A stretch of DNA of 64,000 bases from Pagrus major (lineage: Eukaryota > Chordata > Actinopteri > Spariformes > Sparidae). The notes beneath the pieces are model-generated. The model did no database searches. It had not been told where the DNA came from and was given only the letters and a program-made list of their open reading frames with translations. Location of the stretch: contig NC_133220.1 in the NCBI RefSeq assembly GCF_040436345.1, forward strand, positions 3,465,423 through 3,529,422, given 5' to 3'. This document shows, one piece after another, positions 10,251-45,913 of this stretch (position 1 is the first letter of the stretch; each line of letters opens with the position of its first letter). A program made the position numbers and the translations under genes.

Positions 10251-11869
10251 ACACATGTCATACAATTATACATAGCAATACAATAAGACAAAACAAAATA
10301 AGTAACAATAACAAAATGACCAAAGAAAACAAAAAAAGGAAAAAAAAATAAACCAAAGACAAGACAGCCAGAGGCGTTACAGTTCACTTACACAAAATTT
10401 CTCCATAATAGAGTACGTTCTGGTAGCTTTCTTGTTTTTAAGGTCCTTGATTGTGGCAGCATAACGATGCAGCTCATGTTTAAATGGTACAATGTTCGGT
10501 TTAGATTTGGCCCATTTATTTTTGTGGATGTGAAATTTCCCTAGGCTCAAGATTAACTGACAGAAAAAGCAAAAGTCTTTATCTTGATCTTCATAGTAAA
10601 TAAAACTATGTTTTTCCTGGAAACTGATCGTTCTTCCTGTTTTAACTTGCACAAAGTGTTGGACATCATTCCAAAAAGATTTACTGTATGCACAATGATA
10701 AAATAAGTGAGAAATAGTTTCATCTTCAAGTTCACAAAAATCACACACATATTCAATGTCTAACTTAAATCTTTCAAGGGTTTTCTTTACAGGGTAAATT
10801 TGATGTAAGATTTTAAACGAGACTTCTTTCACCTTGTTATTGAGACAAAACTTCTCACCAACCAGCCATGCTTTATTCCAGTTAATATCTCCAAATTGTG
10901 CGGACCAGTTAATTTGTCCTCTAGGCAGATTTCTTGACTGTAAGCAGCTTCTCAAGAATCTGTTAGGGCAGGATTTTTTTTATAACGTCAACTCCGCCCA
11001 CAAAAATATCACAATTATAATTTTCTGGAACAACAGTGATTCTTTCTGTTCCTTTAAAAAGCTGTAGCACACCTTGAGGTAGTGCATCAAAAACCACTGC
11101 ATATTGTTTTGGTGTGACTGGGAATTGAAATTTTAACAAAAATTCTTCATAAGAAAGTAAGAGACCATGTTCATTAATAAGTTGGTCAACTAATAGAATT
11201 TTAGCTCCATCCAGTCCTCGTAGAACAATGATCGGTTTTTGTAAAGAATATCTTCATTGTTCCAAATATAATAACTGGTTGGCGAGAAATTATGTTTATA
11301 GATCAGCTTCCAGGACAACAAGGCTTGTTTATGAAAATTTGAAAGTTTAACAGGAAGTTTTTCAACTTTGTAGTTACATTTCAACATAAAGCGTATACCA
11401 CCTAATGAGTTAAATACATGTGTAGCAAAAGAGTTCCAGAAGTTGTTCTTCCGTCTACATAAATTATTTAACCAGTTAATCTTGAAAGAGTGATTTAACA
11501 TTTCAAAGGTTAACACATCCAAACCACCATCTCTCTTGGAGTTACACAAGATATCCTTTTTTAAATAATGGCATCTATTCTTCCAAATAAAGTTGAATAA
11601 CATTTGATCTAATTTCTTAGACACTAATGCAGGCATTTCTAGTGCTAGTGATAAGTATACAGATCTTGATATTCCTTCGGCTTTAGATAACAAAGTCCGA
11701 CCATTTAAAGACAGATCCCTCATTAACCACATATTGAATTTTCTTTGTATCTGTTGAGTTATTGGTTCAAAGTTCATCTCAGAGCGTCTGTTCTCATTTT
11801 TTTCAAGCACTACACCCAGATATGTCACAGTTTGTTTGATAGGAATATCACTCAGTTTCTTTCTGAAGA
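10251..11869 (-). mobile_element. 5'-truncated L1/Tx1-like LINE, ORF2 C-terminal half
   Basis: Minus-strand frames at 11190-11869 (YLGVVLEKNENRRS, LFNFIWKNR, KRDGGLDVLTFEM) and 10377-10955 match the region after the reverse-transcriptase palm and the C-terminal end of L1-like ORF2. The second includes the cysteine motif CDFCELEDETISHLFYHC. The two are separated by about 230 bp out of frame, so the copy is dead. Its 5' end abuts an E module at about 11860, inside a sequence (gaagaagtcggtgtttctcc) that is continuous in other E copies. This marks a truncated insertion or a recombination point. The 3' end is cut by the gap. Confidence 0.75.
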
Positions 11870-12535
11870 AGTCGGTGTTTCTCCTGGTCTGTTCTGTAAC
11901 ACGGTGCAACATGACGGAAACAACAGTTTCAGACAATATGAACATAATTATGCTTATTCCAGTTCAGCCAGTAGTTTCCCTTATAATCTACAAACTAGAC
12001 GGTTAATTGAAATGAGCTCTGGTACAAGGAAAACAGAATAAAATGAGGTTTCAGGTAAAAGCATTTTTGAAAACATCCATTTTTAAAATGAAGACATTTA
12101 TTAGTTTACAGACCGGATGACAAAACTGAGTCACTGACACAAGTAATGAACACTTGATCTCTGTTTGAATACTTTGAATAACAACACTTGAATGTAAATA
12201 CAATCACTTTATACATGAATTCAACTGTCAATGAACTAAAAAAACAAACTACAAAACACTACAGACACCGCTACATGTGCTTAAAACGTCATGTGACACC
12301 GTTGACAGTGTGTATAGTTATGATGACACGGTAGATCCCACAGCTCTCCTTAAAGGTTTACGCCACCAATTTTACACTTTCATGGCTTTATTCTGCTTTT
12401 TTGGCCTTTGCAGTCGTTCTCCCCAAGACCTAAGTGTAAACTTGGTGGAGCCACTCTAATTGATCACCAGTAGAGACATTAGGTTTGATAAACAATATTT
12501 GTCTCTGTGGTTTTGAGTTTTTGTACAATTATCTC
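11870..12535 (-). repeat. E module copy downstream of R1
   Basis: This is the recurring block that lies 3' of the RING exons. It contains AATAAA signals in the RING sense (agAATAAAgcc and actAATAAAtgtc), so it probably serves as 3' UTR and polyadenylation region. Other copies are at about 18160-18867, 20570-21285, 29000-29608, 31235-31800, 34900-35826 and, in fragments, 43730-43920 and 44995-45135. Confidence 0.7.
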
Positions 12536-13868
12536 TGCAGTCTGTGGGACTGCTGAAGTCTTTTCCTTCAGTGAGATGTCCTCACACATCTTGAACAACA
12601 GTCCATGATCTTTTGATGATCTTCTCTTACACATTGGACAGTCCTGTATCTGTTTGTCTGTCCACCAGTTCTGCAGACAGAGTTCACAGAAGCTGTGGCT
12701 GCATGACAGGACGACAGGGTCTTTAAAGACGTCCTGACAGATAGGACAGGAGAGATCCTCCTCTGTATGTGAGTCCATTTTCTCCTGCTGAAAACACAGC
12801 GAGCCGGTACAGTCTCTTCCTCGTGGCTCCACACTGATACTTACTTTTACTTCAAGTCGTGTTTTCAGTAAAACTCACATTCAGTGTGGAGCTGGAGCAG
12901 TTTTCAGTGTTTTGGTCGTCCCTCTTCTTGCTGTCATTGGGTGGGGGGACTGTGGTGGTGTCGGTAGTGACTGGAGGTCCTTCATCAAACTCTGGCAGAA
13001 GTCAGAGTAAAGCCAGTCCTGCGACTGATTGAAGAAGTTTGATTTCAGAATCTGAGAGAAAAATGACAAAACAGGACAAAAGAAAACAAATCAGTGAGGT
13101 AGTGGCCAAAACCTAAACACAGACCAGTCTGCTGCCTGACAAGACAGTTAAAATAAGTAAATATTAGCTTTAATGAAGACATTTTCCTAATCCAACATAA
13201 CAGTTAACTACTGTTTATTACACGTGAATGAATGCCAGTCTCCAAAACTACCGGCGACTAAGTACAACGCGTGCATTTAAAGGCAGAATCTAAAATACAC
13301 ACATTTCTAAATGAGGTTCTGAACGCAGATTCACCGCAGCGTCACTCTCCCGTTAGAGCGCGTTGACTGAATGCTTCTGCACCAGACTCCCTTTAAATTA
13401 CACTTAAAAAGATTTTTAACAAGATTTTTAAAAGGGATACGTTACTAAAAAACCTCAACACACAAGAAAAACATGTGTGAAGGCTCGTTCTGCAATTCCG
13501 CGTGAAATACGTCACTCTTAGCACCAGAAAAGCTCAAAGTCCTTAAAAATCCCCACGTGAAACCGCCTGTCTGTCTTTAAATCACAAACACTGCAACAAA
13601 GACACGCACAGCTCAACACCCAGCCATGAAGGTGCACGTCACATAACATTTAACATCCCAAAAATTCACCTGCGTGCAAGCTGCCTTACCTGAATGTCCT
13701 CACAGACGTGGTGGTGTTGGGGAGGTTCAACATGAAGAAGAATAAAACAATAAAATCCACCGAGAGAGACGCGAAAGTTGAATCATCTGCTGACGTGAAA
13801 TGTTCTGCGAGTAAAGTTAAAGTTGGAGAAGAGCAGCGTGGTGTTTGTGCCCTGCTGCTGCTTCTCAT
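12479..13868 (-). pseudogene. RING unit R1 (three exons; RING exon open, upstream frame broken)
   Basis: Exon 1 is 13690-13868, exon 2 is 12879-13051 (173 nt) and exon 3 starts at 12787. Splice sites are clean (attcag|gtaagg; ctctcag|attctg; ctgaat|gtgagt; gttttcag|cagg). Exon 3 alone encodes 99 aa from [18 protein letters not shown] with a full C3HC4 RING ([17 protein letters not shown]). This is the TRIM35/A33-type RING without B-box, coiled coil or SPRY. Compared with R6, exon 1 has two extra bases and exon 2 one base fewer, so the three exons do not join in one frame. A RING-only product from the exon 3 ATG (aaaATGG context) remains possible. The likely family role is ubiquitin ligase activity. 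The tail runs into the E module. Confidence 0.65.
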
Positions 13869-13892
13869 CCTCCTCTGCGACGTTTACTGCCC

Positions 13893-14335
13893 CCCCCCCC
13901 GTACTATAATGGACTATTCCATGAGTCATCCGCGACCGCGACCGCAGCTCGGAAGTGATGTGCTGCGGTTTGTTTACGAGAGAGGTGTACAGTCGGAGTT
14001 CTGGTAAAATGAAGCGTAATTATCCAAGCGGGTCTAATAAGAGGAAAACGCGAGAAGAAACTAAAAAGAAAAACGCCAAGTTTTTTTACTGTGCCACCAC
14101 CGGTTGACACAAATAATAACATTAATGTCAAGGAAGACGTCGTTGCGTTGTTGAGGAGCTACAATCAGCTGTTCCCGAGTCCGATAGTGCAGACAACCCA
14201 GTAGAATTGGTGGAGGAGCGACTGATGCAGACGAAGATATAGTGGTGAATAGGCCAAATAGCCACCCTTCTTCTGACCATGAACGTGATGTTGACCTACT
14301 CCCTCTCGAGCTCTCTACATGAGTTGCTTTACACA
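13893..14335 (+). mobile_element. hAT-type transposon fragment with transposase N-terminus
   Basis: From about 13906 non-unit sequence begins, right against a run of C at 13891-13900. An ATG at 14010 encodes MKRNYPSGSNKRKTREETKK. This is the basic, lysine-rich N-terminal tract typical of hAT transposases of the ZMYM/TTF-type group. A frame change follows (FTVPPPVDTNNNINVKEDV lies in another frame), so this is a short dead piece. Confidence 0.5.
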
Positions 14336-14402
14336 ATGTTAATAATTACCATTTCATTATTACAACCTCACTCCCATACACCCACTCTCTACTAGTCCAA
14401 CT

Positions 14403-14405
14403 AAG

Positions 14406-14456
<51 letters not shown>

Positions 14457-15180
14457 TCCCTGTCTCTCTCTCTCTCGCTCTCTCTCACACACACACACAC
14501 TCCCTGTCTCTCTCTCTCTCGCTCTCACTCACACACACACACACTCCCTGTCTCTCTCTCTCTCGCTCTCACACACACACACACACACTCCCTGTCTCTC
14601 TCTCGCTCTCACTCACACACACACACACACACACACTCCCTGTCTCTCTCTCGCTCTCACTCACACACACACACACACACTCCCTGTCTCTCTCTCGCTC
14701 TCACTCACACACACACACACACACACACTCCCTGTCTCTCTCTCTCTCGCTCTCACTCACACACACACACACACACACACTCCCTGTCTCTCTCTCGCTC
14801 TCACTCACACACACACACACACACACACTCCCTGTCTCTCTCTCGCTCTCACTCACACACACACACACACACACACTCCCTGTCTCTCTCTCTCTCGCTC
14901 TCACTCACACACACACACACACACACACTCCCTGTCTCTCTCTCGCTCTCACTCACACACACACACACACACACTCCCTGTCTCTCTCTCGCTCTCACTC
15001 ACACACACACACACACTCCCTGTCTCTCTCTCGCTCTCACTCACACACACACACACACACACACTCCCTGTCTCTCTCTCTCTCGCTCTCACTCACACAC
15101 ACACACACACACACACTCCCTGTCTCTCTCTCTCTCGCTCTCACACACACACATACAGACTCCCCGTCTCTCTCTCTCTC
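14403..15180 (+). repeat. CT/CA minisatellite built of 'ctccctgtctctctctcgctctcactcacac' units
   Basis: About 14 tandem units of roughly 50-60 bp. Each combines tccctgtctctctct, cgctctcactca and a CA run of varying length. Open frames across it are artefacts of the low complexity. Confidence 0.9.
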
Positions 15181-15400
15181 TCTCTTTCTCCCACTAACTC
15201 ACTCACTAATAATTCATCTTTGCAAACCCTCACTCTCTCCATCCCCTTCCTCTCACACACCATACTACTACTGTAGTTGAGCATACATTGCTTTGTAATT
15301 TATTTGTAATACATTGCACAGTAATTTGTAGTTATTGTTATATTGTAATTTCATAATTGCAATCTCATTCACTCTCTGTCTCTTTTTCTCTCACTTACAC

Positions 15401-15454
<54 letters not shown>

Positions 15455-15660: not shown

Positions 15661-17560
15661 ACCATGGGCGTAGGTTTCTATATAGATGGTCGTGACATGT
15701 CACAACCAATGTTCGAGGATTGCAAAATAGTCACTACCAATATTTGTCTGCTGCTGAGCCAGTAGTAACGTTAGTGAGTGGTAGTAGTGAGCATCTTCCA
15801 AACTGTGTCTTGAAATGGATAAGAGGAAGAAACAGCTGAGAAACAGCGATTAAAAAGTTGAAGTCTCTGGAGGTGGAGGCTGCTAAATGTGCGAAGTTGA
15901 CGGAGCTTTTTGGTGCCGGGACCAGTGACACCGACCCGCCAGCAGCCACAGGTGCTGCTGCGCCGGGAGACGAGGGAGGAGGACCTGACGATGATGAGCG
16001 AGTGGAGGCAGACAGGGTCAGTAACGTTAGCCTGGGGCTGGCTCGGCTAAATGTTTGAGACATGTCCAAAACAAAGTAAAAAAACGTTTTTACATTGAAT
16101 GTGATGCGACCTCACTAACTGCATACTGATGAACGCAGCTGCCGCTAATGCTAACGCAGCTGCCGCTAATGCTAACGTAGCTGCCGCTAATGCTAACGTA
16201 GCTGCCGCTAATGCTAACGCAGCTGCCGCTAATGCTAACGTAGCTGCCGCTAATGCTAACGCAGCTGACGCTAATGCTAACGTAGCTGCCGCTAATGCTA
16301 ACGTAGCTGCCGCTAATGCTAACGCAGCTGCCGCTAATGCTAACGTAGCTGCCGCTAATGCTAACGTAGCTGCCGCTAATGCTAACGTAGCTGCCGCTAA
16401 TGCTAACGCAGCTGCCGCTAATGCTAACGTAGCTGCCGCTAATGCTAACGCAGCTGCCGCTAATGCTAACGTAGCTCCTCAGGGACTGAAGTCGTTATTT
16501 TCTAACTTTGACAGTCTAACATGTGGCAGCACATCAGCCCAGAGTTAAAGGGCTGTGACTGTTGGTAGTTGTGGTTGATTTTGTTCAAATACGCCGAATT
16601 GTGATATTATGGGTTATTATTGTTCAGATGATTTAGCTAAGCTAGCTAACAGATGCTAACGTCAGCGGTCTCTTGTTGCCATAGCAACAGTAAACATTCA
16701 CGTGGCCTGATGAGCTGTAAACAGAGATACAAAACACAAGTAAACCTATAGCAAATAATAAGTTTAATTTGCAATATTTACCATTGAATTTATTGTAATC
16801 TTTCAATTCATTTATTGTTTACTGAGGTGATAACTATCTAACAGGTATAATTTGTGTGTAAATTTACTTTTACTGTAGTTTTCAAATGGCTGTGTATAGT
16901 GTTAGTGTATAGTCTTGAGCATTTTCAGGTCACAAAGATCTGGCTTTTTTGCATTGGGAAACACTAGTAAAGTGTCCTAATGAAAACACGACAAAGCCAT
17001 TTGACGACCTTGTTCATAAATGATGGTGTCAGGACTTTTTTTTATGACACACACACTTTCATTGATAGGAATACTTGGTTTTGAGGAATGACCTCTATTT
17101 TGAGCATGTGACATGCTTTTGCAGGTCATCAACAAGGTTTTGCAGTTTGTACTAATTGTTTTGAGAAATGCACCAACTGTTGTGCAAATGTAAGTAATGA
17201 TGTGAGAAAAACTCCACCCCGTCTCTGGTTTTGGGTTCTTCCCGTTAGTCTCGTCCCACCCCTGGTCATAACATAACTTCTGTTGTGATTTGACACTATA
17301 ATGAACAAAGATTGATTGGTTGATTGCTATAGCTGTCAGTTTTAGTCCTTGAGTTCATAGCTACGTGCTTTATTTGTTAACTGCTATCAAGGAATATGAC
17401 TCTCCTTTGTAGTATGTGTGAGAAAGGACGCCACGAGATTTGTGGACTTCTACGTGGTGTCCGCTGATAATGTAGTGGGCTGGTCTGGACAGAAAATGCC
17501 AGAGCTGAATTTTTGTCCCAGTCCACCCCTGCCGCCCACTACTCTAACTTTTCCCTCCGC
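15660..17560 (+). mobile_element. Degenerate hAT-like transposon
   Basis: The left side reads CCATGGGCGTAGGTTTCTAT. At 15815 an ATG starts MDKRKKQLRNS, and a shifted frame at 15850-16058 gives KSLEVEAAKCAKLTELFGAG. Both are typical of hAT transposase N-termini of the ZMYM1-like group. The right side (GGACAGAAAATGCCAGAGCT, then tgtcccagtcca) resembles hAT ends. No catalytic core is seen. A 21-bp minisatellite expanded inside at 16132-16473. The stretch 16550-17400 shows nothing else I recognise. Confidence 0.5.
16132..16473 (+). repeat. 21-bp minisatellite (gcagctgccgctaatgctaac)n
   Basis: About 16 head-to-tail copies with only c/t and single-base variants. The unit length is a multiple of three, so the array stays open in frame and would encode a repeating AAANAN(V/A) heptamer. 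The downstream frame (LKSLFSNFDSLTCG) ends at 16548. Coding use is doubtful. Confidence 0.9.
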
Positions 17561-17589
17561 AACCAATCAGCGCTTAGTGAATTCAGTGA

Positions 17590-17879: not shown

Positions 17880-18160
17880 CGTAGCCTATGAATGATATGG
17901 GAAAGCTGAGATATGGAGTATTAACAGTAATACACTTTAACTGCACGTTAACACTGATGTAAACTTTAACAAATATAAACTGTGACACAATAAACCAAAG
18001 TCTTACAACTGCCCTATTACTTATAAAGGGGATGGAAATCTAACAGCATTTTAACTAACATTCTTGATGGAATGATGGGGCTATCCCCTAAGCAAGCCCG
18101 ACCCTGGCGCCGCCTCTGCCTGTGAGTCTGGCAGACTCACAGGAACTTTTAACAGTCCTG
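17590..18160. mobile_element. hAT-like element pair with 86-bp inverted arms
   Basis: The arms 17590-17675 and 18074-18160 are near-perfect reverse complements (CAGAGGCGGCGCCAGGGTCG and on to the atagcccc side). Inside is a second hAT-style end (GGCGGTTGCTTGGGGCCCC) and a long TA microsatellite (about 17808-17878). The inverted similarity extends beyond the CAGAGG...CCTCTG terminus into flanking sequence, so this is a palindromic rearrangement and not a simple MITE. Confidence 0.6.
17808..17878. repeat. (TA)n microsatellite
   Basis: About 70 bp of nearly pure TA repeat. A second such tract is at 22052-22110. Confidence 0.95.
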
Positions 18161-18867
18161 CAGAGATAATTGTACAAAAACTCCAAACCACAGAGACAAA
18201 TATTGTTTATCAAACCTAATGTCTCTACTGGTGATCAATTAGAGTAGCTCCACCAAGTTTACACTTAGGTCTTGGGGAGAACGACTGCAAAGGCCAAAAA
18301 AGTAGAATAAAGCCATGAAAGTGTAAAATTGGTGGAGTTTCCCTTTAAGGAGAGCTGTGGGATCTACCGTGTCATCATAACTATACACACTGTCAACGGT
18401 GTCACATGACGTTTTATGCACATGTAGCGGTGTCTGTAGTGTTTTGTAGTTTGTTTTTTTAGTTCATTGACGGTTGAATTCATGTATAAAGTGATTGTAT
18501 TTACATTCAAGTGTTGTTATTCAAAGTATTCAAACAGAGATCAAGTGTTCATTACTTGTGTCAGTGACTCAGTTTTGTCATCCGGTCTGTAAACTAATAA
18601 ATGTCTTCGTTTTAAAAATGGATGTTTTCAAAAATGCTTTTACCTTAAAACTCATTTTATTCTGTTTTCCTTGTACCAGAGCTCATTTCAATTAACCGTC
18701 TAGTTTGTAGATTATAAGGGAAACTACTGGCTGAACTGGAATAAGCATAATTATGTTCATATTACCTGAAAGTGTTGTTTCCGTCATGTTGCACCGTGTT
18801 ACAGAACAGACCAGGAGAAACACCGACTTCTTCAGAAAGCCTTTGGGGACAACTGCAGTTTGTACAA
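18160..18867 (+). repeat. Orphan E module copy
   Basis: The RING 3'-flank block in plus orientation, starting ctgcagagataattgtac, with no RING exon upstream. The hAT-like palindrome ends exactly where the RING tail would be. A LINE tail interrupts its end after tttgtacaaat. Confidence 0.75.
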
Positions 18868-19551
18868 ATAGAATAGAATAGATATACTTTACTGATCCCA
18901 AGCTGGGAAATTAAGGTGTAGCAGCAGCATTACACACAGAGACGAATGACAACACAGTGAAATAAAAAGAACAACCTGGGCATATTAACATAATATAAAA
19001 TGTAATATAAAACAATGTATATATGCAAAAAATATGTATAAAAATGTATAAATGAGCAGTGTTGGTGTATACACAAGCAGTATTAATGGTAGTGCAAAAT
19101 AAAGTACAAGGTGCAGTGAACAGATGAGGTGCAGAACAGTGTAAAACATATAAAGTGCGTAGAGACTGTATGTTATGACCAGAGTTTTAGCTGTTGTTGT
19201 ACAGTGTGATGGCACGTGGCAGTAAAGATTTCCTGTATCTGTCCCTTCGACAGCGGAGCTGAAGCAGCCTGTGAGAGAAGGTACTCCGCTGTCTGTCTAC
19301 TGTGTGGTGGAGAGGGTGCTGATCATTGTCCATGATGGATAAAAGTTTCTTCAGCGTTCTCCTCTCCACCACAGTATCAGCCTGGGAGGCTGGCTCCCAG
19401 GCTTCTTGATGATTTCATCAAGTCTGTTAGTGTCGCTGGCTCTGATGCTGCTGCCCCAACACTCAGCAGCAAAGAACAAAACAAAAACAACAGACTGGTA
19501 GAAGATCTCCAACATCTTGCTGCACACGTTGAAGGATCTCAGCTTCCTCAG
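18868..19551 (-). mobile_element. LINE 3' fragment, CR1/L2/Rex1-like, ORF2 C-terminus
   Basis: The element's 3' end (AGAATAGAATAGATATACTT, then tgatcccaagctgggaaatt) is of the common fish LINE type. On the minus strand the frame reads MVERRTLKKLLSIMDNDQHP, then HRLLQLRCRRDRYRKS, and ends AITLYNNS, which is the usual C-terminus of such ORF2s. It is 5' truncated. An identical insertion at the same point is seen at 29609-30297, so the whole neighbourhood was duplicated afterwards. Confidence 0.75.
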
Positions 19552-20569: not shown

Positions 20570-21285
20570 TACAGCGTTTTCTTCAAACTCATGGATTTAT
20601 TACTCAAACCAGCCTCATAGGACTGTATTTTACTGCCTCACTCTTATCGGGAACAAAGTGATGCCAGGTGATAATTGTACAAAAACTCAAAACCACAAAG
20701 ACAAGAGTACTACTGCAAAGGCCAAAAAAGTAGAATAAAGCCATGAAAGTGTAAAATTGGTGGAGTAAACCTTTAAGGAGAGCTGTGGGATCTACCGTGT
20801 CATCATAACTATACACACTGTCAACGGTGTCACATGACGTTTTAAGCACATGTAGCGGTGTCTGTAGTGTTTTTTTAGTTCATTGACGGTTGAATTCATG
20901 TATAAAGTGATTGTATTTACATTCAAGTGTTGTTATTCAAAGTATTCAAACAGAGATCAAGTGTTCATTACTTGTGTCAGTGACTCAGTTTTGTCATCCG
21001 GTCTGTAAACTAATAAATGTCTTCATTTTAAAAATGGATGTTTTCAAAAATGCTTTTACCTTAAAACTCATTTTATTCTGTTTTCCTTGTACCAGAGCTC
21101 ATTTCAATTAACCGTCTAGTTTGTAGGTTATAAGGGAAACTACTGGCTGAACTGGAATAAGCATAATTATGTTCATATTACCTGAAAGTGTTGTTTCCGT
21201 CATGTTGCACCGTGTTACAGAACAGACCAGGAGAAACACCGACTTCTTCAGAAAGCCTTTGGGGACAACTGCAGTTTGTACAAAT
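20570..21285 (+). repeat. Second orphan E module copy
   Basis: It begins with the leader 'tttacagcgttttcttcaaa' that also precedes the E copies at 28890 and 43540, then continues as a normal E block to about 21285 (gtttgtacaaatgaggttcact). No RING exon is attached. Confidence 0.75.
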
Positions 21286-21304
21286 GAGGTTCACTTCCCA
21301 CATT

Positions 21305-22047
21305 TTCAAACGGTGCCCAATTTGGTGCCCGAGGCAAGATTTTGGCTGGCGCCCGCTCACATCACAGTCAATTTCACAATCAGTTTTCATACACTCACAC
21401 AGAAACTACATGTATGTATTCAAGATTTTATTTCTTTTAAGTCAAAAATATCACACCAAATAAAAACTGAAGAAAGAAACAAGTGATACATTAAAAATAC
21501 AATATAAATAAGGTATTGCACAAACATATTAAAGAATATTCTATTTACCTACAAAATAAAAACAGTCTGTATTCTTTGGGAGGAAACCTTTTGCAGCAGA
21601 AGCAGAACAAGCTGTCATTCTTGTTTGAGTACATCAGCCAGCTTCTTTTGATTTCTTCCCCACTGACTGAGACTCTGGTAAAAAAGTCATGTGGACACTT
21701 TCTCCCATCTTTGTTTTGGGGAAATGTGTGACTGTTTTTTATTTGAAATGGTCGTCTGTGAACTAACTCCTTTCTTACTGTGTTAGTTAGAAGAGATGTC
21801 CAGTCAGCAGGTCTACTGGTGCAGCCTTTAGTCCTGATGCTGTGTCCCTCTCTGTGCTGAGGTAGAGGACAGGAGCACCTGATGCTGTGTCACTGGCGGT
21901 GAAATATTTTAAAAGTGCATCTGAAGAGAGAAGAGAAGTATATGTGACCACTGGATGTTACATTTCAATAAAAAACAGATGCTTGGTTTGTGCTGTACGT
22001 AAGACTAATATAGACTAAAGTAAAGTGCAGTGAAACTTATATATAGC

Positions 22048-22640: not shown

Positions 22641-23507
22641 TGGTGTGTTAGACATTAGACTGCATCAGCCGCCGACCAGACTTTGTGAACAGTAAACGTC
22701 GGAGAGGAGGATGAGAAGCAGCAGCAGGACACAAACACCACGCTGCTCTTCTCCAACTTTAACTTTACTCACAGAACATTTCACGTCAGCAGATGATTCA
22801 ACTTTCGCGTCTCTCTCGGTGGATTTTATTGTTTTATTCTTCTTCATGTTGAACCTCCCCAACACCACCACGTCTGTGAGGACATTCAGGTAAGGCAGCT
22901 TGCACGCAGGTGACTTTTTTTTTGGGATGTTAAATGTTACGTGACGTGCACCTTCATGGCTGGGTGTTGAGCTGTGCGTGTCTTTGTTGCAGTGTTTGTG
23001 ATTTAAAGACAGACAGGCGGTTTCACGTGGGGATTTTTAAGGACTTTGAGCTTTTCTGGTGCTAAGAGTGACGTATTTACGCGGAATTGCAGAACAAGTC
23101 TTCACACATGTTTTTCTTGTATGTTGAGGTTTTTTAGTAACGTGTCGCTTTTAAAAATCTTGTTAAAAAATCTTTTTAAGTGTAATTTAAAGGGAGTCTG
23201 GTGCAGAAGCGTGCAGTCAACGCGCTCTAACGGGAGAGTGACGCTGCGGTGAATCTGCGTTCAGAACCTCATTTAGAAATGTGTGTATTTTAGATTCTGC
23301 CTTTAAATGCACTTGTACTTAGTCGCCGGTAGTTTTGGAGACTGGCATTCATTCACGTGTAATAAACAGTAGTTAACTGTTATGTTGGATTAGGAAAATG
23401 TCTTCATTAAAGCTAATATTTACTTATTTTAACTGTCTTGTCAGGCAGCAGACTGGTCTGTGTTTAGGTTTTGGCCACTACCTCACTGATTTGTTTTCTT
23501 TTGTCCT

Positions 23508-27144: not shown

Positions 27145-27209
27145 CGGGCGGCGACAGGCTTTATAAGCCGCCGACCAGACTTTGTGAACAGTAAACGTCG
27201 GAGAGGAGG
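27145..27209 (+). promoter_or_regulatory. TATA promoter and leader of R3
   Basis: GCTTTATAAGCC at about 27154-27166 is followed by GCCGACCAGACTTTGTGAAC and the exon 1 ATG at 27210. The same TATA plus 'agccgccgaccagact' block is seen before R4 in reverse and in variant form before other copies, so it is likely the core promoter of the family. Confidence 0.55.
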
Positions 27210-31230: not shown

Positions 31231-31234
31231 ACAG

Positions 31235-31800: not shown

Positions 31801-33146
31801 TGGGACTGCAGAGGGTCTGTGGGACTGCTGAAGTCTTTTCCTTCAGTGAGATGTCCTCACACATCTTGAAAAACAGTCCATAATCTTTTGATGATCTTCT
31901 CTTACACATTGGACAGTCCTGTATCTGTTTGTCTGTCCACCAGTTCTGCAGACAGAGTTCACAGAAGCTGTGGCTGCATGACAGGACGACAGGGTCTTTA
32001 AAGACGTCCTGACAGATAGGACAGGAGAGATCCTCCTCTGTATGTGAGTCCATTTTCTGCTGCTGAAAACACAGCGAGCCGGTACAGTCTCTTCCTCGTG
32101 GCACCACACTGATACTTACTTTTACTTCAAGTCGTGTTTTCAGTAAAACTCACATTCAGTGTGGAGCTGGAGCAGGTTTCAGTGTTTTGGTCGTCCCTCT
32201 TCTTGCTGTCATTGGGTGGGGGGACTGTGGTGGTGTCGGTAGTGACTGGAGGTCCTTCATCAAACTCTGGCAGAAGTCAGAGTAAAGCCAGTCCTGCGAC
32301 TGATTGAAGAAGTTTGATTTCAGAATCTGAGAGAAAAATGACAAAACAGGACAAAAGAAAACAAATCAGTGAGGTAGTGGCCAAAACCTAAACACAGACC
32401 AGTCTGCTGCCTGACAAGACAGTTAAAATAAGTAAATATTAGCTTTAATGAAGACATTTTCCTAATCCAACATAACAGTTAACTACTGTTTATTACACGT
32501 GAATGAATGCCAGTCTCCAAAACTACCGGCGACTAAGTACAAGTGCATTTAAAGGCAGAATCTAAAATACACACATTTCTAAATGAGGTTCTGAACGCAG
32601 ATTCACCGCAGCGTCACTCTCCCGTTAGAGCGCGTTGACTGCACGCTTCTGCACCAGACTCCCTTTAAATTACACTTAAAAAAGATTTTTTAACAACATT
32701 TTTAAAAGCGACACGTTACTAAAAAACCTCAACACACAAGAAAAACATGTGTGAAGCCTTGTTCTGCAATTCCGCGTGAAATACGTCACTCTTGGCACCA
32801 GAAAAGCTCAAAGTCCTTAAAAATCCCCACGTGAAACCGCCTGTCTGTCTTTAAATCACAAACACTGCAACAAAGACACGCACAGCTCAACACCCAGCCA
32901 TGAAGGTGCACGTCACATAACATTTAACATCCCCCAAAAAAATTCACCTGCGTGCAAGCTGCCTTACCTGAATGTCCTCACAGACGTGGTGGTGTTGGGG
33001 AGGTTCAACATGAAGAAGAATAAAACAATAAAATCCACCGAGAGAGACGCGAAAGTTGAATCATCTGCTGACGTGAAATGTTCTGCGAGTAAAGTTAAAG
33101 TTGGAGAAGAGCAGCGTGGTGTTTGTGTCCTGCTGCTGCTTCTCAT
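31712..33146 (-). pseudogene. RING unit R4 (three exons)
   Basis: Exon 1 is 32968-33146, exon 2 is 32154-32326 (173 nt) and exon 3 starts at 32062. The RING ORF from the ATG at 32053 encodes 113 aa with all eight zinc ligands ([17 protein letters not shown]) and a tail reading into E sequence. Structure and splice sites match R1. Like R1 it lacks the indels that make R6 continuous. Upstream lie two TATA-like sites and a perfect hairpin (33257-33336). Confidence 0.65.
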
Positions 33147-33179
33147 CCTCCTCTCCGACGTTTACTGTTGACAAAGTGT

Positions 33180-33200
33180 GGTAGGCGGCTTATAAAGTCT
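33180..33200 (-). promoter_or_regulatory. Proximal TATA promoter of R4
   Basis: On the minus strand GACTTTATAAGCCGCC lies about 45 bp upstream of the exon 1 ATG, the same block as before R3. Confidence 0.5.
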
Positions 33201-33256
33201 TAACACCGCCCTCTCACCCTCCCTCCTCCCTCCTCTCTCCTCCCTCACTAGACACA

Positions 33257-33336
33257 TTCTGAGAATCTTCACTTCTTCTCTCTCAGAATTGTGCACAGGC
33301 ACAATTCTGAGAGAGAAGAAGTGAAGATTCTCAGAA
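33257..33336. repeat. Perfect 37-bp inverted repeat (hairpin, 6-nt loop)
   Basis: The left arm 33257-33293 and right arm 33300-33336 are exact reverse complements, separated by cacagg. The arm begins TTCTGAGAATCTTCACTTCT. It lies between two TATA-like boxes upstream of R4. A relic of the arm (acacattctgagaatct) is at about 37867 near the exon-1-only copy. Confidence 0.95.
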
Positions 33337-34899: not shown

Positions 34900-35826
34900 T
34901 GAAAACTTTTCTGTGTGACGATTTGTTTTGTTTCAAGTACAATAGACGGAGCTCATAATGCTGCCTGTGTGATTCTCATCGACTGTTTCACTTGTAGAAT
35001 CTGCGTCTCCGCTTTGTCATGTAAATATTTAATAAACTGGTGAATGAACAAACTTTCTGATGAGCTGAGAGTTTGTTGACTTTCAGAGTTGAACATCACG
35101 AATCCTTTGAAAATGTGGGAAGTGAACCTCATTTGTACAAACTGCAGTTGTCCCCAAAGGCTTTCTGAAGAAGTCGGTGTTTCTCCAGGTCTGTTCTGTA
35201 ACACGGTGCAACATGACGGAAACAACACTTTCAGGTAATATGAACATAATTATGCTTATTCCAGTTCAGCCAGTAGTTTCCCTTATAATCTACAAACTAG
35301 ACGGTTAATTGAAATGAGCTCTGGTACAAGGAAAACAGAATAAAATGAGTTTTAAGGTAAAAGCATTTTTGAAAACATCCAATTTTAAAAATGAAGCGTT
35401 TATTAGTTTACAGACCGGATGACAAAACTGAGTCACTGACACAAGTAATGAACACTTGATCTCTGTTTGAATACTTTGAATAACAACACTTGAATGTAAA
35501 TACAATCACTTTATACATGAATTCAACTGTCAATGAACTAAAAAAACAAACAAACTACAAAACACTACAGACACCGCTACATGTGCTTAAAACGTCATGT
35601 GACACCGTTGACAGTGTGTATAGTTATGATGACACAGTAGATCCCACAGCTCTCCTTAAAGGTTTACGCCACCAATTTTACACTTTCATGGCTTTATTCT
35701 ACTTTTTTGGCCTTTGCAGTCGTTCTCCCCAAGACCTAAGTGTAAACTTGGTGGAGCTACTCTAATTGATCACCAGTAGAGACATTAGGTTTGATAAACA
35801 ATATTTGTCTCTGTGGTTTTGAGTTT
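34900..35826 (-). repeat. Long E module copy of R5
   Basis: The fullest E block. Beyond the usual end it continues through a 91-codon minus frame (34953-35228, ...FVMFNSESQQTL...HQFIKYLHDKAETQIL) also partly kept at 43794-44084. No known domain. Confidence 0.65.
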
Positions 35827-37093
35827 TTATACAATTATCTCTGCAGTCTGTGGGACTGCTGAAGTCTTTTCCTTCAGTGAGATGTCCTCACACATCTTGA
35901 AAAACAGTCGTTGATCTTTTGATGATCTTCTCTTACACATTGGACAGTCCTGTATCTGTTTCTCTGTCCACCAGTTCTGCAGACAGAGTTTACAGAAGCT
36001 GTGGCTGCATGACAGGACGACAGGGTCTTTAAAGACGTCCTGACAGATAGGACAGGCGAGATCCTCCTCTGTATGTGAGTCCATTTTCTCCTGCTGAAAA
36101 CACAGCGAGCCGGTACAGTCTCTTCCTCGTGGCTCCACACTGATACTTACTTTTACTTCAAGTCGTGTTTTCAGTAAAACTCACATTCAGTGTGGAGCTG
36201 GAGCAGGTTTCAGTGTTTTGGTCGTCCCTCTTCTTGCTGTCATTGGGTGGGGGGACTGTGGTGGTGTCGGTAGTGACTGGAGGTCCTTCATCAAACTCTG
36301 GCAGAAGTCAGAGTAAAGCCAGTCCTGCGACTGATTGAAGAAGTTTGATTTCAGAATCTGAGAGAAAAATGACAAAACAGGACAAAAGAAAACAAATCAG
36401 TGAGGTAGTGGCCAAAACCTAAACACAGACCAGTCTGCTGCCTGACAAGACAGTTAAAATAAGTAAATATTAGCTTTAATGATGACATTTTCCTAATCCA
36501 ACATAACAGTTAACTACTGTTTATGACACGTGAATGAATGCCAGTCTCCAAAACTACCGGCGGCTAAGTACAAGTGCATTTAAAGGCAGAATCTAAAATA
36601 CACACATTTCTAAATGAGGTTCTGAACGCAGATTCACCGCAGCGTCACTCTCCCGTTAGAGCGCGTTGACTGCACGCTTCTGCACCAGACTCCGTTTAAA
36701 TTACACTTAAAAAAGATTTTTTAACAACATTTTTAAAAGCGACACGTTACTAAAAAACCTCAACACACAAGAAAAACATGTGTGAAGGCTCGTTCTGCAA
36801 TTCCGCGTGAAATACGTCACTCTCAGCACCAGAAAAAGCTCAAAGTCCTTAAAAATCCCCACGTGAAACCGCCTGTCCCAAAAAAAAAATTCACCTGCGT
36901 GCAAGCTGCCTTACCTGAATGTCCTCACAGACGTGGTGGTGTTGGGGAGGTTCAACATGAAGAAGAATAAAACAATAAAATCCACCGAGAGAGACGCGAA
37001 AGTTGAATCATCTGCTGACGTGAAATGTTCTGCGAGTAAAGTTAAAGTTGGAGAAGAGCAGCGTGGTGTTTGTGTCCTGCTGCTGCTTCTCAT
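35827..37093 (-). pseudogene. RING unit R5 (three exons)
   Basis: Exon 1 is 36915-37093, exon 2 is 36185-36357 and exon 3 starts at 36093. The RING ORF from the ATG at 36084 is 85 aa and intact (CPIC, CSHSFCKLC, CPMC). The usual glutamate after FC is a lysine here. The first intron is shortened near the donor by loss of about 110 bp (36870-36890) relative to R1. Upstream is a TATA-like GTGTATATATGG (minus strand, about 37133-37144) with a variant leader. The long frame is broken as in R1. Confidence 0.65.
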
Positions 37094-37184
37094 CCTCCTC
37101 TCAGACGTTTACTGTTCACAATGGGCGGCTCCTCCATATATACACGGTACACCGGCAGGGAAGTGACGCCGAGACCTCGTTACT

Positions 37185-37797
37185 CATTACACATTTCTAA
37201 ATGAGGTTCTGAACGCAGATTCACCGCAGCGTCACTCTCCCGTTAGAGCGCGTTGACTGCACGCTTCTGCACCAGACTCCCTTTAAATTACACTTAAAAA
37301 GATTTTTTAACAAGATTTTTAAAAGCGACACGTTACTAAAAAACCTCAACGTACAAGAAAAACATGGGTGAAGGCTCGTTCTGCAATTCCGCGTGAAATA
37401 CGTCACTCTTAGCACCAGAAAAGCTCAAAGTCCTTAAAAATCCCCACGTGAAACCGCCTGTCTGTCTTTAAATCACAAACACTGCAACAAAGACACGCAC
37501 AGCTCAACACCCAGCCATGAAGGTGCACGTCACATAACATTTAACATCCCAAAAAAAAAGTCACCTGCGTGCAAGCTGCCTTACCTGAATGTCCTCACAG
37601 ACGTGGTGGTGTTGGGGAGGTTCAACATGAAGAAGAATAAAACAATAAAATCCACCGAGAGAGACGCGAAAGTTGAATCATCTGCTGACGTGAAATGTTC
37701 TGCGAGTAAAGTTAAAGTTGGAGAAGAGCAGCGTGGTGTTTGTGTCCTGCTGCTGCTTCTCATCCTCCTCTCCGACGTTTACTGTTCACAGAGTCTG
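37185..37797 (-). pseudogene. Exon-1-only remnant of a RING unit
   Basis: Exon 1 (37585-37763) with its donor and about 380 bp of first intron. It ends abruptly at 37185, where it joins the promoter side of R5. No exon 2 or RING exon follows before R5, so transcripts from here could only splice into R5 exons. Confidence 0.7.
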
Positions 37798-38347
37798 GTC
37801 GGCGGCTGATGCAGTCTAACACCGCCCGCTCACCCTCTCTCCTCCCTCCTCTCTCCTCCCTCATGAGACACATTCTGAGAATCTGAGAATCTGAGAATCG
37901 ATAGAGGGTGAGCGGGCCGCGATAGGCTACATCAGCTAATAGCTAATATTTACTTATTTTAACTGTCTTGTCACGCAGCAGACTGGTCTGTGTCGGACAT
38001 TTCAGTACTTAAAGTGTGGGTGTCTGTGCACAATCTGGCGTGATTTTGTCGCTCCTGTACTACAATTGGTCCTCAGTACTGTCTAAAACAGCTTCCACAT
38101 CTCACATCTAAACAGCCTTGGAAATTAAAACAGTTTTAGCTGTGCAGGATATTCGTGCATGGTGTGCAAATGGAAGTTTGTCACTGACAGCAGTTTTTTC
38201 ACTGCCAATCATGTGGCGTAGCCGAATCGTTTTAGATCCTACGTTCCCTGAAGGCAACATGATAGGGGAAGGTCTGTAGCCTTTTGGTTGAGCTGTCTTT
38301 CATGATGCCACGCCCCTCTCAGTTGATGCCACGCCCCCCCACGCTAG
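37798..38347. other. Spacer with short 'tctgagaa' repeats
   Basis: CT-rich leader sequence, three tandem ATCTGAGA copies at about 37874-37900, a small piece of RING intron (37940-37995) and otherwise unrecognised non-coding DNA. Confidence 0.4.
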
Positions 38348-39849: not shown

Positions 39850-42596
39850 TTAAATGATATCTGGCCCCGCTGCAGTGTGTGTGTGTGTGTGTGTGTAGTG
39901 TAACACTCTGTAACATGATGGATTTACAAAAAGCTCATTCTGAGGCAACAAAACAACAGTTTCTGTGGAGACTGCAGAAGTCTTTTCCTTCAGTGAGATG
40001 TCCTCACACATGAACAACAGTAGTTTACGTTTTGATGATCTTCTCTTACAAACTGGACAGTCCTGTATCTGTTTCTCTGTCCACCAGTTCTGCAGACAGA
40101 GTTCACAGAAGCTGTGGCTGCATGACAGGACGACAGGGTCTTTAAAGACGTCCTGACAGATAGGACAGGAGAGATCCTCCTCTGTATGTGAGTCCATTTT
40201 CTCCTGCTGAAAACACAGCGAGCCGGTACAGTCTCTTCCTCGTGGCTCCACACTGATACTTACTTTTACTTCAAGTCGTGTTTTCAGTAAAACTCACATT
40301 CAGTGTGGAGCTGGAGCAGGTTTCAGTGTTTTGGTCGTCCCTCTTCTTGCTGTCATTGGGTGGGGGGGACTGTGGTGGTGTCGGTAGTGACTGGAGGTCC
40401 TTCATCAAACTCTGGCAGAAGTCAGAGTAAAGCCAGTCCTGCGACTGATTGAAGAAGTTTGATTTCAGAATCTGAGAGAAAAATGACAAAACAGGACAAA
40501 AGAAAACAAATCAGTGAGGTAGTGGCCAAAACCTAAACACAGACCAGTCTGCTGCCTGACAAGACAGTTAAAATAAGTAAATATTAGCTTTAATGAAGAC
40601 ATTTTCCTAATCCAACGTAACAGTTAACTACTGTTTATTACACGTGAATGAATGCCAGTCTCCAAAACTACCGGCGACTAAGTACAAGTGCCAGGGGTGG
40701 TCCTGGCTAGATTTACGCCCTGGGCGAACCATCCCTTGCACACATACACGCCCACACACACACACACACACACACACCTGAGGAGTCCTGCAAGGAACAT
40801 TACATGTGGCTGAGGAGGTAGATGCTCCAGGACCATCCCTGAAGAGGCCTGTGTGGCTGCAGAGGTAGATGGCTCCTCATCAGACTCCAGGACCATGTCT
40901 GTGGCTGCTGTGGAAGTATCTGACTCCTCATTTTGGCCAGTGGGTGCTCCAGCTCCAAAATATTTCAGAAGTGCCCCTGAATTTACAATTAAGATACAAT
41001 ATGTAAGTTAGACTACACTTACATCACACATGCATCAGTTACCCAATGAAAATGACCATAATGCACATTTTATTAACATTTGTTAACATCCTGTTAACTG
41101 AGCATAACACACTACAAATTATTCAAAAGGCTTTATCACATGTAGCTTACAAAATGCCATGTCAATGTATAGTAGAAGTTATTTAAGTTAGCATGTAGCA
41201 TTAAAAACTCCACAGTCAGGACGTCTGTGTGAATTTGCACTTGTTGTGTTGCAAACACAAACTAGCCTAGGTTGCCTATGGGTGAAATTAGTTGCATGAC
41301 ATGATGCCTCAATTCTAATAGTTGCTAGTTCAGCAAAACTAAAAAACCAAATACAGTCGTCTTCTGTGGCTAAGTAGCAACATATTAGCAAGAGGCTAAT
41401 AAACAGCCTATAGGCTACTGTCACTCAGAAATCTGCATTCCTTTATCTTTTGCCCGTTTCTTCTCTTCTTCTTTTCTTCTTTTTCTGAACTGGGCACCTG
41501 ATGGCTTCTTTGGTCTTTTATTTTGATCCATGATGAAGATGAAGACTCGACATCATCACCTTTTGCCAACACCGTCCGTTCGCCCGTCAAACAACCGGAG
41601 TCACGTGATGTAAACAAATTCACGTAGATGCATGCACAGGTTTTTGTTTGTTTGTTTGTTTGTTTTTACATTTTTCACATAACCCAATGAATTACATGTA
41701 GGTATATGGGTCTATATTAATTTTAGGAATGAAATACAATTTATTTGGAAGCAGTTTGTGTTGTGTGGCCTGGGATCATCAGTCTATCCCCCCCTCCCCC
41801 TGCTGACACACACACCTGTGTGACTCTCAGCAGCGAGTTGATGTCACAATGAGGCCGCAGTGCCCACTCCACTGACTGAGTCTGGAAAACTTGCCAGTTT
41901 TGTTTTATCTTTTTTTTTTTTTTTTTGAGCGCCCTCACATAGATTGCGCCCTGGGCGGTCGCCCACATTGCCCATAGCAAAAACCGGCCCTGTGACAAGT
42001 GCATTTAAAAGGCAGAATCTAAAATACACACATTTCTAAATGAGGTTCTGAACGCAGATTCACCGCAGCGTCACTCTCCCGTCAGAGCGCGTTGACTGCA
42101 CGCTTCTGCACCAGACTCCCTTTAAATTACACTTAAAAAGATTTTTTAACAAGATTTTTAAAAGCGACACGTTACTAAAAAACCTCAACATACAAGAAAA
42201 ACATGTGTGAAGCCTTGTTCTGCAATTCCGCGTGAAATACGTCACTCTTGGCACCAGAAAAGCTCAAAGTCCTTAAAAATCCCCACGTGAAACCGCCTGT
42301 CTGTCTTTAAATCACAAACACTGCAACAAAGACACGCACAGCTCAACACCCAGCCATGAAGGTGCACGTCACATAACATTTAACATCCCAAAAATTCACC
42401 TGCGTGCAAGCTGCCTTACCTGAATGTCCTCACAGACGTGGTGGTGTTGGGGAGGTTCAACATGAAGAAGAATAAAACTATAAAATCCACCGAGAGACGT
42501 GAAAGTTGAATCATCTGCTGACGTGACATTTTCTGCGTTTAAACTTAAAGTTGGAGAAGAGCAGCGTGGTGTTTGTGTCCTGCTGCTGCTTCTCAT
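39850..42596 (-). CDS. RING unit R6: three exons joining in one open frame, RING E3-type protein
   Basis: Exon 1 is 42420-42596 (59 codons), exon 2 is 40298-40471 (58 codons, 174 nt) and exon 3 is 39850-40206 (118 codons plus stop). All introns are phase 0, giving about 235 aa. Exon 1 ends HHHVCEDIQ, exon 2 runs [18 protein letters not shown] to SSSTLN, and exon 3 runs [17 protein letters not shown], with C3HC4 ligands [17 protein letters not shown]. Relative to R1-R5, exon 1 lacks two bases and exon 2 has one extra C; together these open the whole path. The RING is TRIM35/A33-type; B-box, coiled coil and SPRY are absent. The C-terminal tail reads through repeat-derived sequence including a TH dipeptide run. 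The first intron holds a 1.3-kb hAT element. Ubiquitin-ligase function is inferred from the domain. Confidence 0.6.
40692..41994 (-). mobile_element. hAT element in the first intron of R6, 8-bp target duplication
   Basis: Flanked by ACAAGTGC at 40684-40691 and 41995-42002; the empty site (gtacaagtgcattt) is seen in R4 and R5. Ends are CAGGGGTGGTCCTGGCTAGA and ...GCAAAAACCGGCCCTGTG. On the minus strand at 41408-41623 a frame with [20 protein letters not shown], then KIKECRFLS, matches a hAT (ZMYM-type) transposase N-terminus. The catalytic part is missing, so it is non-autonomous. Confidence 0.75.
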
Positions 42597-42708
42597 CCTC
42601 CTCTCCGACGTTTACGGTTGACAAGGTGTGGTCGGCGGCTGACAAAGTTGCGGACGGTGACGCGAATCAGAGCGCGTCAGAACGAATCAGCGCCCAGGAA
42701 GTGAAGTT

Positions 42709-42785
42709 CACTGACAGTAAGTCCTGTCAGTGAACTTCACTGACAGTAAGTCCTGTCAGTGAACTTCACTGACAGTAAGTCCTGT
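42709..42785 (+). repeat. 29-bp tandem repeat, about 2.6 copies
   Basis: The unit gtcagtgaacttcactgacagtaagtcct is repeated head to tail. Each unit contains a near-palindrome GTCAGTGAACTTCACTGAC. Confidence 0.85.
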
Positions 42786-43073
42786 GCTGGACCATCAGCA
42801 GCCGTTGTCTCGTCTGTCTGCACTCTCACTTGTGGGTGTGGCAGCAGAGTCGGTCCAGAAGAAGGGAAACATCCAGCTCATTTATGGAGAACAGGATACT
42901 TTGATGGCAGTGGCTCCCTGTGGCTTTGACATCTTACATGGAAATGAATAATATATTTTTTTATATCATCGTCACTGTTTTAGTCCGACAGTGATTCTTA
43001 CACCCTCCGACAGTAAAAACGTGCAGCCTACTCACAGAAATCTGTTCTATCAAGTTGTGATTAATTGATCCTG
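42786..43073 (+). repeat. Left arm of a 0.29-kb inverted repeat with a short coding-like frame
   Basis: Matches the reverse complement of 45135-45413. It carries an open frame ending GNIQLIYGEQDTLMAVAPCG, then FDILHGNE and a stop at about 42950. This looks like the last exon of some gene, but I cannot name it. Confidence 0.6.
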
Positions 43074-43142
43074 AGTTAATATCATTGTGTTTTATGCTCA
43101 AGCCTGAGGGGTGATCACTGTATGTGGCTGAGGATAAAAAAG

Positions 43143-44380
43143 AAGGATTATCTCACACTGAAATGGACTGAAATACAATTTAAACTGTCCTGTGTTTTTA
43201 AATCCAACCTGCCGCTCTGTGTTTCATTTATTATCGAATGAGTCTTTTTATTTTGAACATTTTCACAAACACAGGAACGACTTAAGTAGGTCTGCATATA
43301 TATTTCTGTATTGCTCCGCTATTTCATTGTAGGTTATTTCTTTTGTTTCATTAAATGCACCAAAACATGGCATCATTGAAATGGAAATGCAAAGTTCAAC
43401 TACCTCATACTGTGAGCATAAGTAGCCCGCTGCAGAGCTGCCACATGATGTGAAAATATAAATGAATGCACATTTAGGCAGACAGATTTTTTTGGCGATG
43501 GACGGGGGCAGAGGACACATTTATCGTTACTCTGCAAACTTTACAGCGTTTTCTTTAAACTCATGGATTTATTACTCAAACCAGCCTCATAGGACTGTAT
43601 TTTACTGCCTCACTCTTATCGGGAACAAAGTGATGCCAGGTGATAATTGTACAAAAACTCAAAACCACAGAGACACGAGTACTACTGCAAAGGCCAACAA
43701 GGTGGAATAAAGCCATGTAATACTACATGACGTTTTAAGCACATGTAGCGGTGTCTGTAGTGTTTTGTAGTTTTTATTTTGTTTCTGTTTCACTTATAGA
43801 ATCTGCGTCTCCGCTTTGTCATGTAAATATTTAATAAACTGGTGAATGAACAAACTTTCTAATGAGGTGAGAGTTTGTTGACTTTCAGAGTTGAACATCA
43901 CGAACCCTTTGAAAATGTGAGAAGTGAAACATTGAACATTGAAAAAAATACAAAAATAAATAATGGAAAAAAACTTAAATGTGAAAATCAGTGTCCCTCC
44001 TTCCTCCCTTACAGCAGCAACCAATCTAATGTGATATTGTTTCCAAGGCTGCACATTAACACAGCTTGCATAACAAAAAGACAATCATGGGAGGTGTGAG
44101 GCGTGTTTCTGTAATTCAGCCTTGAAATATGGGTCTATTTTGTCTTCACGGCGGAGTGAAACTGAAGGGCTGAAGGAGTGAGAGGAAAGTAGACCCAGGT
44201 AAACTTTCCTACCGCAAACTCCTCCTCGATGAGAATCACGCAGGCAGCATTATGAGCTCCATCTATTGTACTCGACACAAAACAAATCGTCACACAGAAA
44301 AGTTTTCAGGTGATTTATTTTGTACAGTGAACTGTTCACCAGCGATGACTCGATGCAGATAAAATAAACTTTTTTGGGGG
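43143..44380 (+). repeat. Mixed repeats: R3-type 3' flank, E fragment, 39.2-kb-type block
   Basis: 43143-43700 matches 28582-29060, 43730-43920 is a broken E module, and 43925-44340 matches 39215-39700 with small differences. No gene. Confidence 0.55.
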
Positions 44381-45135: not shown

Positions 45136-45413
45136 TGTGATCAATTAATCACAACTTGATAGAACAGATTTCTGTGAGTAGGCTGCACGTTTTTACTGTC
45201 GGAGGGTGTAAGAATCACTGTCGGACTAAAACAGTGACGATGATATAAAAAAATATATTATTCATTTCCATGTAAGATGTCAAAGCCACTGCCATCAAAG
45301 TATCCTGTTCTCCATAAATGAGCTGGATGTTTCCCTTCTTCTGGACCGACTCTGCTGCCACACCCACAAGTGAGAGTGCAGACAGACGAGACAACGGCTA
45401 CTGATGGTCCAGA
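45135..45413 (-). repeat. Right arm of the 0.29-kb inverted repeat
   Basis: Reverse complement of 42786-43073 with few differences. The two arms flank 2.06 kb of E/F modules. Confidence 0.7.
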
Positions 45414-45432
45414 CAGAAGATTAGGAATTGCT

Positions 45433-45700
45433 CACTGTGCAGACTGCAGAGGGTCTGTGGAGACTGAAGAGGGTCTGTGGGATTGAAGAGGGTCTGTGGG
45501 ACTGAAGAGGGTCTGTGGAGACTGCAGAGGGTCTGTGGAGACTGAAGAGGGTCTGTGGGACTGAAGAGGGTCTGTGGAGACTGAAGAGGGTCTGTGGAGA
45601 CTGAAGAGGGTCTGTGGGACTGCAGAGGGTCTGTGCAGACTGCAGAGAGTCTGTGGGACTGCAGAGGGTCTGTGGAGACTGCAGAGGGTCTATGGGACTA
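45433..45700 (-). repeat. 19-22-bp minisatellite at the 3' end of R7
   Basis: About 13 copies of 'gactg(c/a)agagggtctgtgg(ga/a)' directly after the R7 RING stop. R3 carries three copies of the same unit as part of its coding tail, R4 about two. Confidence 0.9.
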
Positions 45701-45913
45701 CTGAAGTCTTTTCCTTCAGTGCGATGTCCTCACACATCTTGAAAAACAGTAGTGTATCTTTTGATGATCTTCTCTTGCAAACTGGACAGTCCTGTATCTG
45801 TTTGTCTGTCCACCAGTTCTGCAGACAGAGTTCACAGAAGCTGTGGCTGCATGACAGGACGACAGGGTCTTTAAAGACGTCCTGACAGATAGGACAGGCG
45901 AGATCCTCCTCTG
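45690..45913 (-). pseudogene. RING unit R7, partial RING exon cut by the gap
   Basis: The frame reads [18 protein letters not shown] through [20 protein letters not shown] to a stop near 45690. The start and exons 1-2 are lost in the N gap at 45914. The RING ligands are intact. It lies on the same strand as, and just downstream of, Ig gene 2. Confidence 0.65.

Follow-up and report, generated by a model that had tools for sequence, protein, structure and literature searches.

Seven RING exons in one contig

The window analysed here is a stretch of 64,000 nucleotides from the fish Pagrus major (RefSeq assembly GCF_040436345.1, NC_133220.1, positions 3,465,423 to 3,529,422 of the forward strand), and all coordinates below count from its first base. 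Positions 10251 to 45913 are exactly one contig, bounded by the window's two runs of N, which are assembly gaps of 100 N each at 10151 to 10250 and at 45914 to 46013. This contig holds an array of seven RING-coding exons, named c1 to c7, and B7/butyrophilin-like immunoglobulin (Ig) genes lie on both sides of it. Blocks of 0.2 to 2.2 kilobases (kb) within the contig are 86 to 99.5% identical to one another, a repetition far beyond chance. Two of the RING copies are on the plus strand and five on the minus strand, in agreement with the earlier note on this DNA, which had described seven copies in both orientations. It had also held that the RING ligands are kept in every copy, and all eight zinc ligands (C11, C14, C26, H28, C31, C34, C47, and C50) are indeed retained in 7 of 7, with c7 lacking only RING residues 1 to 5, which fall in the gap. 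Pfam recognizes a C3HC4 RING in c1, the copy scanned, with a score of 46.6 bits against a cut-off of 25.2, and the closest PDB sequences to it are TRIM69, the best, followed by RNF8 and TRIM39. The copies thus have the N-terminal C3HC4 RING that is a feature of TRIM/RBCC proteins.

Each open reading frame (ORF) begins at the RING ATG, which is the lower coordinate on the plus strand and the higher one on the minus strand. On the plus strand are c2 (26771 to 27112, 113 amino acids [aa]) and c3 (28300 to 28581, 93 aa), the latter continuing into a short minisatellite. The minus-strand copies are c1 (12479 to 12778, 99 aa, continuing into the module called D below), c4 (31712 to 32053, 113 aa), c5 (35827 to 36084, 85 aa), c6 (39850 to 40197, 115 aa, with an in-frame deletion of three nucleotides 3' of the RING), and c7 (45690 to 45913), which begins within the gap and has 73 residues between the gap and an in-frame stop after the RING. 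The tails of the ORFs diverge past about residue 80 in an alignment of six of the seven copies, in which c1 and c5 have the start of the tail in common. Relatives of the RING were also sought by pattern in viral contigs (2 matches) and in bacterial and archaeal contigs (39 matches), and none of these was confirmed.

The array is real inside one contig. Its place and orientation relative to the Ig genes are a scaffolding claim without continuous sequence, because the contig is bounded by 100-N gaps at both ends. The right gap interrupts c7 to its left and, to its right, the transmembrane exon of the right-hand Ig gene, and a BLAST comparison of the contig with both flanks, with low-complexity sequence masked, gave no match at E<=1e-3. 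Of an array lying between two facing Ig genes, what stands is that such genes occur on both sides; their arrangement around it rests on scaffolding.

Architecture of the repeated unit

Two modules lie upstream of the RING exon. Module P, the promoter/exon-1 module, consists of exon 1 with its donor site and carries a TATA-like site, TTTATAAG, in c3 and c4; module Q consists of the end of intron 1, exon 2, and intron 2. A third module, D, lies behind the RING. In c4, on the minus strand, P runs from 32539 to 33268, Q from 32070 to 32533, and D from 31226 to 31788. Related P stretches are at about 13271 to 13889, 22655 to 23316, 27133 to 27807, 36602 to 37121, 37189 to 37884, and 41995 to 42648, and other D stretches at about 18158 to 18869, 20670 to 21310, 29002 to 29613, and 43642 to 43780. 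Of these D stretches, the one at 29.0 kb is located 0.4 kb downstream of the c3 ORF and may belong to that copy. Stretches of P, Q, or D without an attached RING occur at about 18.2, 20.7, 22.7, 24.6 to 25.3, 37.2 to 38.9, and 43.6 kb, and the end points of the copies are widely scattered, unlike those of a fixed-end transposon.

An exact-motif search recovered the full set of exon-1 donor, exon-2 acceptor and donor, and RING acceptor for c1, c3, c4, c5, and c6. The same three-exon unit, which had been ascribed to all seven copies, is seen in c1, c3, c4, and c5, where exon 1, exon 2, and the RING exon follow in close order; c6 is split by an insert, c2 has no exon 1 upstream, and c7 displays the RING alone. 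The insert in c6 (1.3 kb, 40692 to 41998, minus strand) sits in intron 1 with GCACTTGT on either side and CAGGG-like ends, and we take it to be hAT-like. Only c3 and c4 were seen to have a TATA-like site together with all splice sites; the exact search did not find the site in four of the six copies with visible upstream sequence, c5 among them, and the upstream sequence of c7 is not visible. Exon 2 (12879 to 13051 in c1, and its equivalents) contains a reading frame with abundant T, P, D, and S. In c3 and c4, this frame runs without a stop for 44 codons and joins the RING frame; c6 carries one extra base there. In the frames tried, neither exon 1 nor exon 2 gave a Pfam match to a known coding domain.

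A broken B-box behind the RING

In c7, the RING and its in-frame stop are followed by a 20-base-pair (bp) minisatellite of 13.6 units (45435 to 45699, minus strand) and then by a stretch that reads CSLHSEQFLIFCLDHQ, a stop, and CLVC in another frame. This stretch (45345 to 45457, minus strand) is a B-box relic, broken by the stop and a frame slip. Read through the one frame slip, its 37 aa matched only five PDB sequences at E<=10, namely, TRIM39, TRIM41, TRIM21 (two), and XNF7, with a best E of 0.045; an unverified consensus of a fish TRIM35-like exon 1 matched it as well (tblastn E of 3.65e-4). The end of the relic and the DNA downstream occur a second time, on the plus strand at 42782 to 43070, with no RING in front. 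This second copy is 98.4% identical over the 127 bp compared and, with frames assigned by reading, has the same slip and no stop. Because the two share the slip, breakage of the B-box probably predates duplication of the relic piece. The earlier statement that the B-box is missing throughout is contradicted by these two pieces, although no intact B-box was seen. Two unverified probes found no PRY-SPRY in the window at a useful E-value (best E of 0.95). The start of a coiled coil was not found with the exon-1 consensus as probe; later coiled-coil exons were not searched.

Minisatellite units lie behind the RING in c3, c4, and c7. From this region, c1, c4, and c5 pass into module D, and c2 and c6 pass into other sequence, from which we infer that the minisatellite is a site where copies were cut or fused. 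The seven copies are 50 to 73% identical to the TRIM35-like exon-1 consensus over 56 to 102 columns. An origin from a TRIM35-like first exon, as had been proposed, gains support in its TRIM part from the RING and the broken B-box relic; the TRIM35 label of the array is tentative and comes from the unverified fish consensus.

Divergence and selection

Pooled over 21 pairs and 77 codons, the ratio of nonsynonymous to synonymous differences per site (pN/pS) of the RING is 0.90. There are at least 20 RING substitutions, which a hand count from the codon table divides into 16 to 17 nonsynonymous and 3 to 4 synonymous ones. With all 20 events, a ratio of nonsynonymous to synonymous substitution rates (dN/dS) of 0.3 is disfavoured (P of 0.004 or 0.001), and a dN/dS of 1 fits. 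No purifying selection was detected, and the RING copies would appear to evolve without detectable protein constraint, a result with which weak constraint is compatible. The residue pairs at codons 58 and 59 are HG, QR, QG, YG, KL, and TL among the copies. Gene conversion or recurrent change in the array is likely, because 24 of the 45 pairs of informative sites in c1 to c6 are incompatible with one tree.

When the same copies are compared, divergence of the RING lies between that of module Q, which is lower, and those of modules P and D, which are higher. In c1, c3, and c4, there are 25 variable sites per kb in P, 15 in Q, and 22 in the RING; in c1, c4, and c5, there are 45 in the 3' half of P, 11 in Q, 30 in the RING, and 45 in D. 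The earlier note had described exons 1 and 2 as decaying while the RING ligands are kept and had proposed a comparison of their rates. Neither exon decays faster than the RING, the module with exon 2 has diverged less than any other, and the expected contrast is not seen, with the RING above Q and below P and D at 22 and 30 sites per kb. A RING evolving at the rate of an "E module" had been named as evidence to the contrary; E was left undefined, and if it is exon 2, the RING equals or exceeds that rate. The opposite claim, that the RING evolves faster than its flanks, was considered as well. Against Q, variable sites number 16 of 228 versus 12 of 464 in c1 to c6 (P of 0.007) and 11 of 231 versus 11 of 464 in c1 to c5 (P of 0.11). 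In general form it was not upheld, since divergence in P and D matches or surpasses that of the RING.

Predicted transcripts and product

Copies c3 and c4, if transcribed, would give a short RING protein, and this predicted RING-only product may bind an E2. TRIM ligases usually need the coiled coil, which this product would lack, for dimerising. With predicted splice sites, and with transcription taken to begin 30 bases beyond the first base of the TATA-like site, the spliced leaders have 4 (c3) and 5 (c4) ATGs before the RING ATG, which is at mRNA position 382. Because of these upstream ATGs, translation of the predicted mRNAs would need leaky scanning or reinitiation.

Origin of the array

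We consider it probable that the array is debris of segmental duplication that copied the 5' end of a single, already broken fish TRIM gene of TRIM35/hltr-like type. The seven RINGs, accompanied by RING-less fragments with many different end points, argue for this, as do the B-box relics, the stops in c7 and the slip common to both relics, the minisatellite at the break, the negative PRY-SPRY search, the pN/pS and substitution counts of the RING, the module divergences, and the incompatible sites. The copies look more like leftovers of a messy duplication of recent date than like a new gene family, with small proteins still possible; on this account, the copies would be pseudogenes. Combining c7, c3, and the relic at 42782 suggests an ancestral order of promoter/exon 1, exon 2, RING exon, 20-bp minisatellite, broken B-box, about 0.9 kb, and module D. 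The parent TRIM gene would have been broken behind the RING before amplification. Its remnant would then have multiplied through rounds of duplication and inversion, which left copies in both orientations and probably involved gene conversion. Several copies would have been broken or joined to other sequence at or close to the minisatellite, which would explain why the RING ORFs of c1 to c6 (85 to 115 aa) end in differing tails. Of the "repeat-driven amplicon" suggested earlier, a segmental-duplication amplicon fits, and a single transposon is not supported because the copies end at many different places. A transposon that carries a captured TRIM 5' end and spreads the unit is highly unlikely. 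It would account for copies in both orientations and for module ends that recur near unit positions 884, 1030 to 1034, and 1760 to 1769, but no end pair is common to the copies in this window, and the recurrence at 1030 to 1034 is due, in part if not wholly, to the hAT-like insert of c6 and other DNA at about 24.7 to 25.06 kb.

Several observations weigh against debris and, in part, speak for a family of RING-only mini-ligases that is young and functional and might compete for E2 enzymes with full TRIM35-like proteins. There is no stop or frameshift in the 77 RING codons of the seven copies (72 codons in c7) and no ligand lost in any of them, and under a neutral model of substitutions alone, with an assumed transition bias of 2, the copies would escape both stops and ligand changes with a probability of 0.02 to 0.05. 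The RING core, codons 8 to 54, is less variable than the tail (8 of 141 versus 11 of 69 sites, P of 0.02), and when the hypervariable codons 57 to 59 are dropped, a dN/dS of 0.3 is no longer excluded (P of 0.06 to 0.17). Exon-2 splice sites are retained in 6 of 6 copies where they are visible, and the c7 B-box relic has no Pfam match. Gene conversion would make sites non-independent, so that all of these site tests are approximate. A functional family would also accord with the TATA-like site and full set of splice sites in c3 and c4 and with the RING-only allele of zebrafish ftr39, a transcript of which is in print (PMC2657112). We nevertheless find such a family unlikely, given the pN/pS of 0.90, the C-termini that differ between copies, the absence, by exact search, of a TATA-like site from four of the six copies with visible upstream sequence, and the upstream ATGs of the predicted c3 and c4 leaders; the young RING-only family of the earlier note is unsupported by selection. 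A very young family of this kind, with its core held and the linker directly behind the core, at codons 58 and 59, diversified by gene conversion and mutation, is decidedly unlikely; if true, its mini-ligases would parallel, with a RING alone, the B30.2 families that diversify. Scarcely credible, in our judgment, is an assembly artefact, in which scaffolding placed a repeat-rich contig of other location between the Ig genes or the copies are false duplicates. The contig ends at gaps, one of which cuts two exons, and the masked contig does not match its flanks, as such an artefact would predict, but the whole array sits within one contig, and the copies are too divergent for simple false duplicates (97.6% identity over 1,721 bp between 11859 to 13571 and 35161 to 36877). 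This alternative bears on the placement of the array more than on its existence.

Flanking Ig genes and other elements

The left B7/butyrophilin-like gene (1459 to 8460, plus strand), recognized by Pfam and PDB matches, has its variable (V) exon at 1459 to 1851, its constant (C) exon at 4080 to 4415, and a transmembrane segment at about 8080. The right one (46014 to 53195, minus strand) was recognized by translation and by DNA match to the left gene. The 3' halves of the two (4800 to 8189 and 46014 to 49155) are near-identical inverted copies, with 90 to 100% identity per 100-bp bin, falling to 80% in the final bin beside the gap. In the 5' halves, alignment is largely limited to the V exon together with its 3' neighbour and to the C exon (79%), and most introns are unalignable. 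The two genes are mosaics, formed perhaps by conversion or partial duplication. A further C-like reading frame on the minus strand, at 60692 to 61015, suggests a third B7/butyrophilin-like gene. The RING was also considered as a captured exon of either receptor; this was rejected for the left gene, since c1 is on the other strand, and is not demonstrable for the right gene, where the gap cuts both.

A truncated long interspersed nuclear element (LINE) piece (10377 to 11858, minus strand) abuts module D of c1. Its zf-RVT match is confined to the ORF at 10377 to 10979, and the adjoining ORF has no Pfam match. The window's one Rfam match at the gathering threshold is a UnaL2 LINE 3' element at 62393 to 62446, outside the array. 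The contig also holds a CT/CA-rich minisatellite with a 48-bp period (14408 to 15185, 16.5 copies) and a 21-bp tandem array (16132 to 16476, 16.4 copies).

Comparison with known fish TRIM genes

Fish have three large subsets of class IV TRIM genes. The teleost TRIM35/hltr subset resembles the array in its TRIM-type RING and its multi-copy expansion in fish, but the 37 zebrafish trim35/hltr genes are reported to carry B30.2 without exception (PMC3137616), whereas here the B-box is broken and a B30.2 was not found. A RING-only TRIM35 array is not named in the titles or abstract openings among the literature matches listed, which does not prove its absence. If any copy is translated, the array would be a natural test of how a lone TRIM RING acts; if none is, it is a warning for annotators, because a domain search easily calls such ORFs genes.

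Two zebrafish genes also resemble the array in form. According to PMC3137616, btr31 has kept its RING and lost its B-boxes and coiled coil, as in the array, and differs in having a B30.2 with a transmembrane segment between. The account of ftr39 in PMC2657112 gives, from transcripts, a RING-only allele that arose by a 2-bp deletion. There too a fish TRIM first exon is broken behind the RING and leaves a RING-only protein, but as a single allele, whereas the present case is an array of amplified copies with a minisatellite at or close to the cut. The array can be read as an amplified, degenerate case of a broken fish TRIM first exon. It illustrates a route from a fish TRIM gene to a RING-only ORF, in which the break would be marked by a first-exon minisatellite that separates RING from B-box and segmental duplication would then multiply the remnant.

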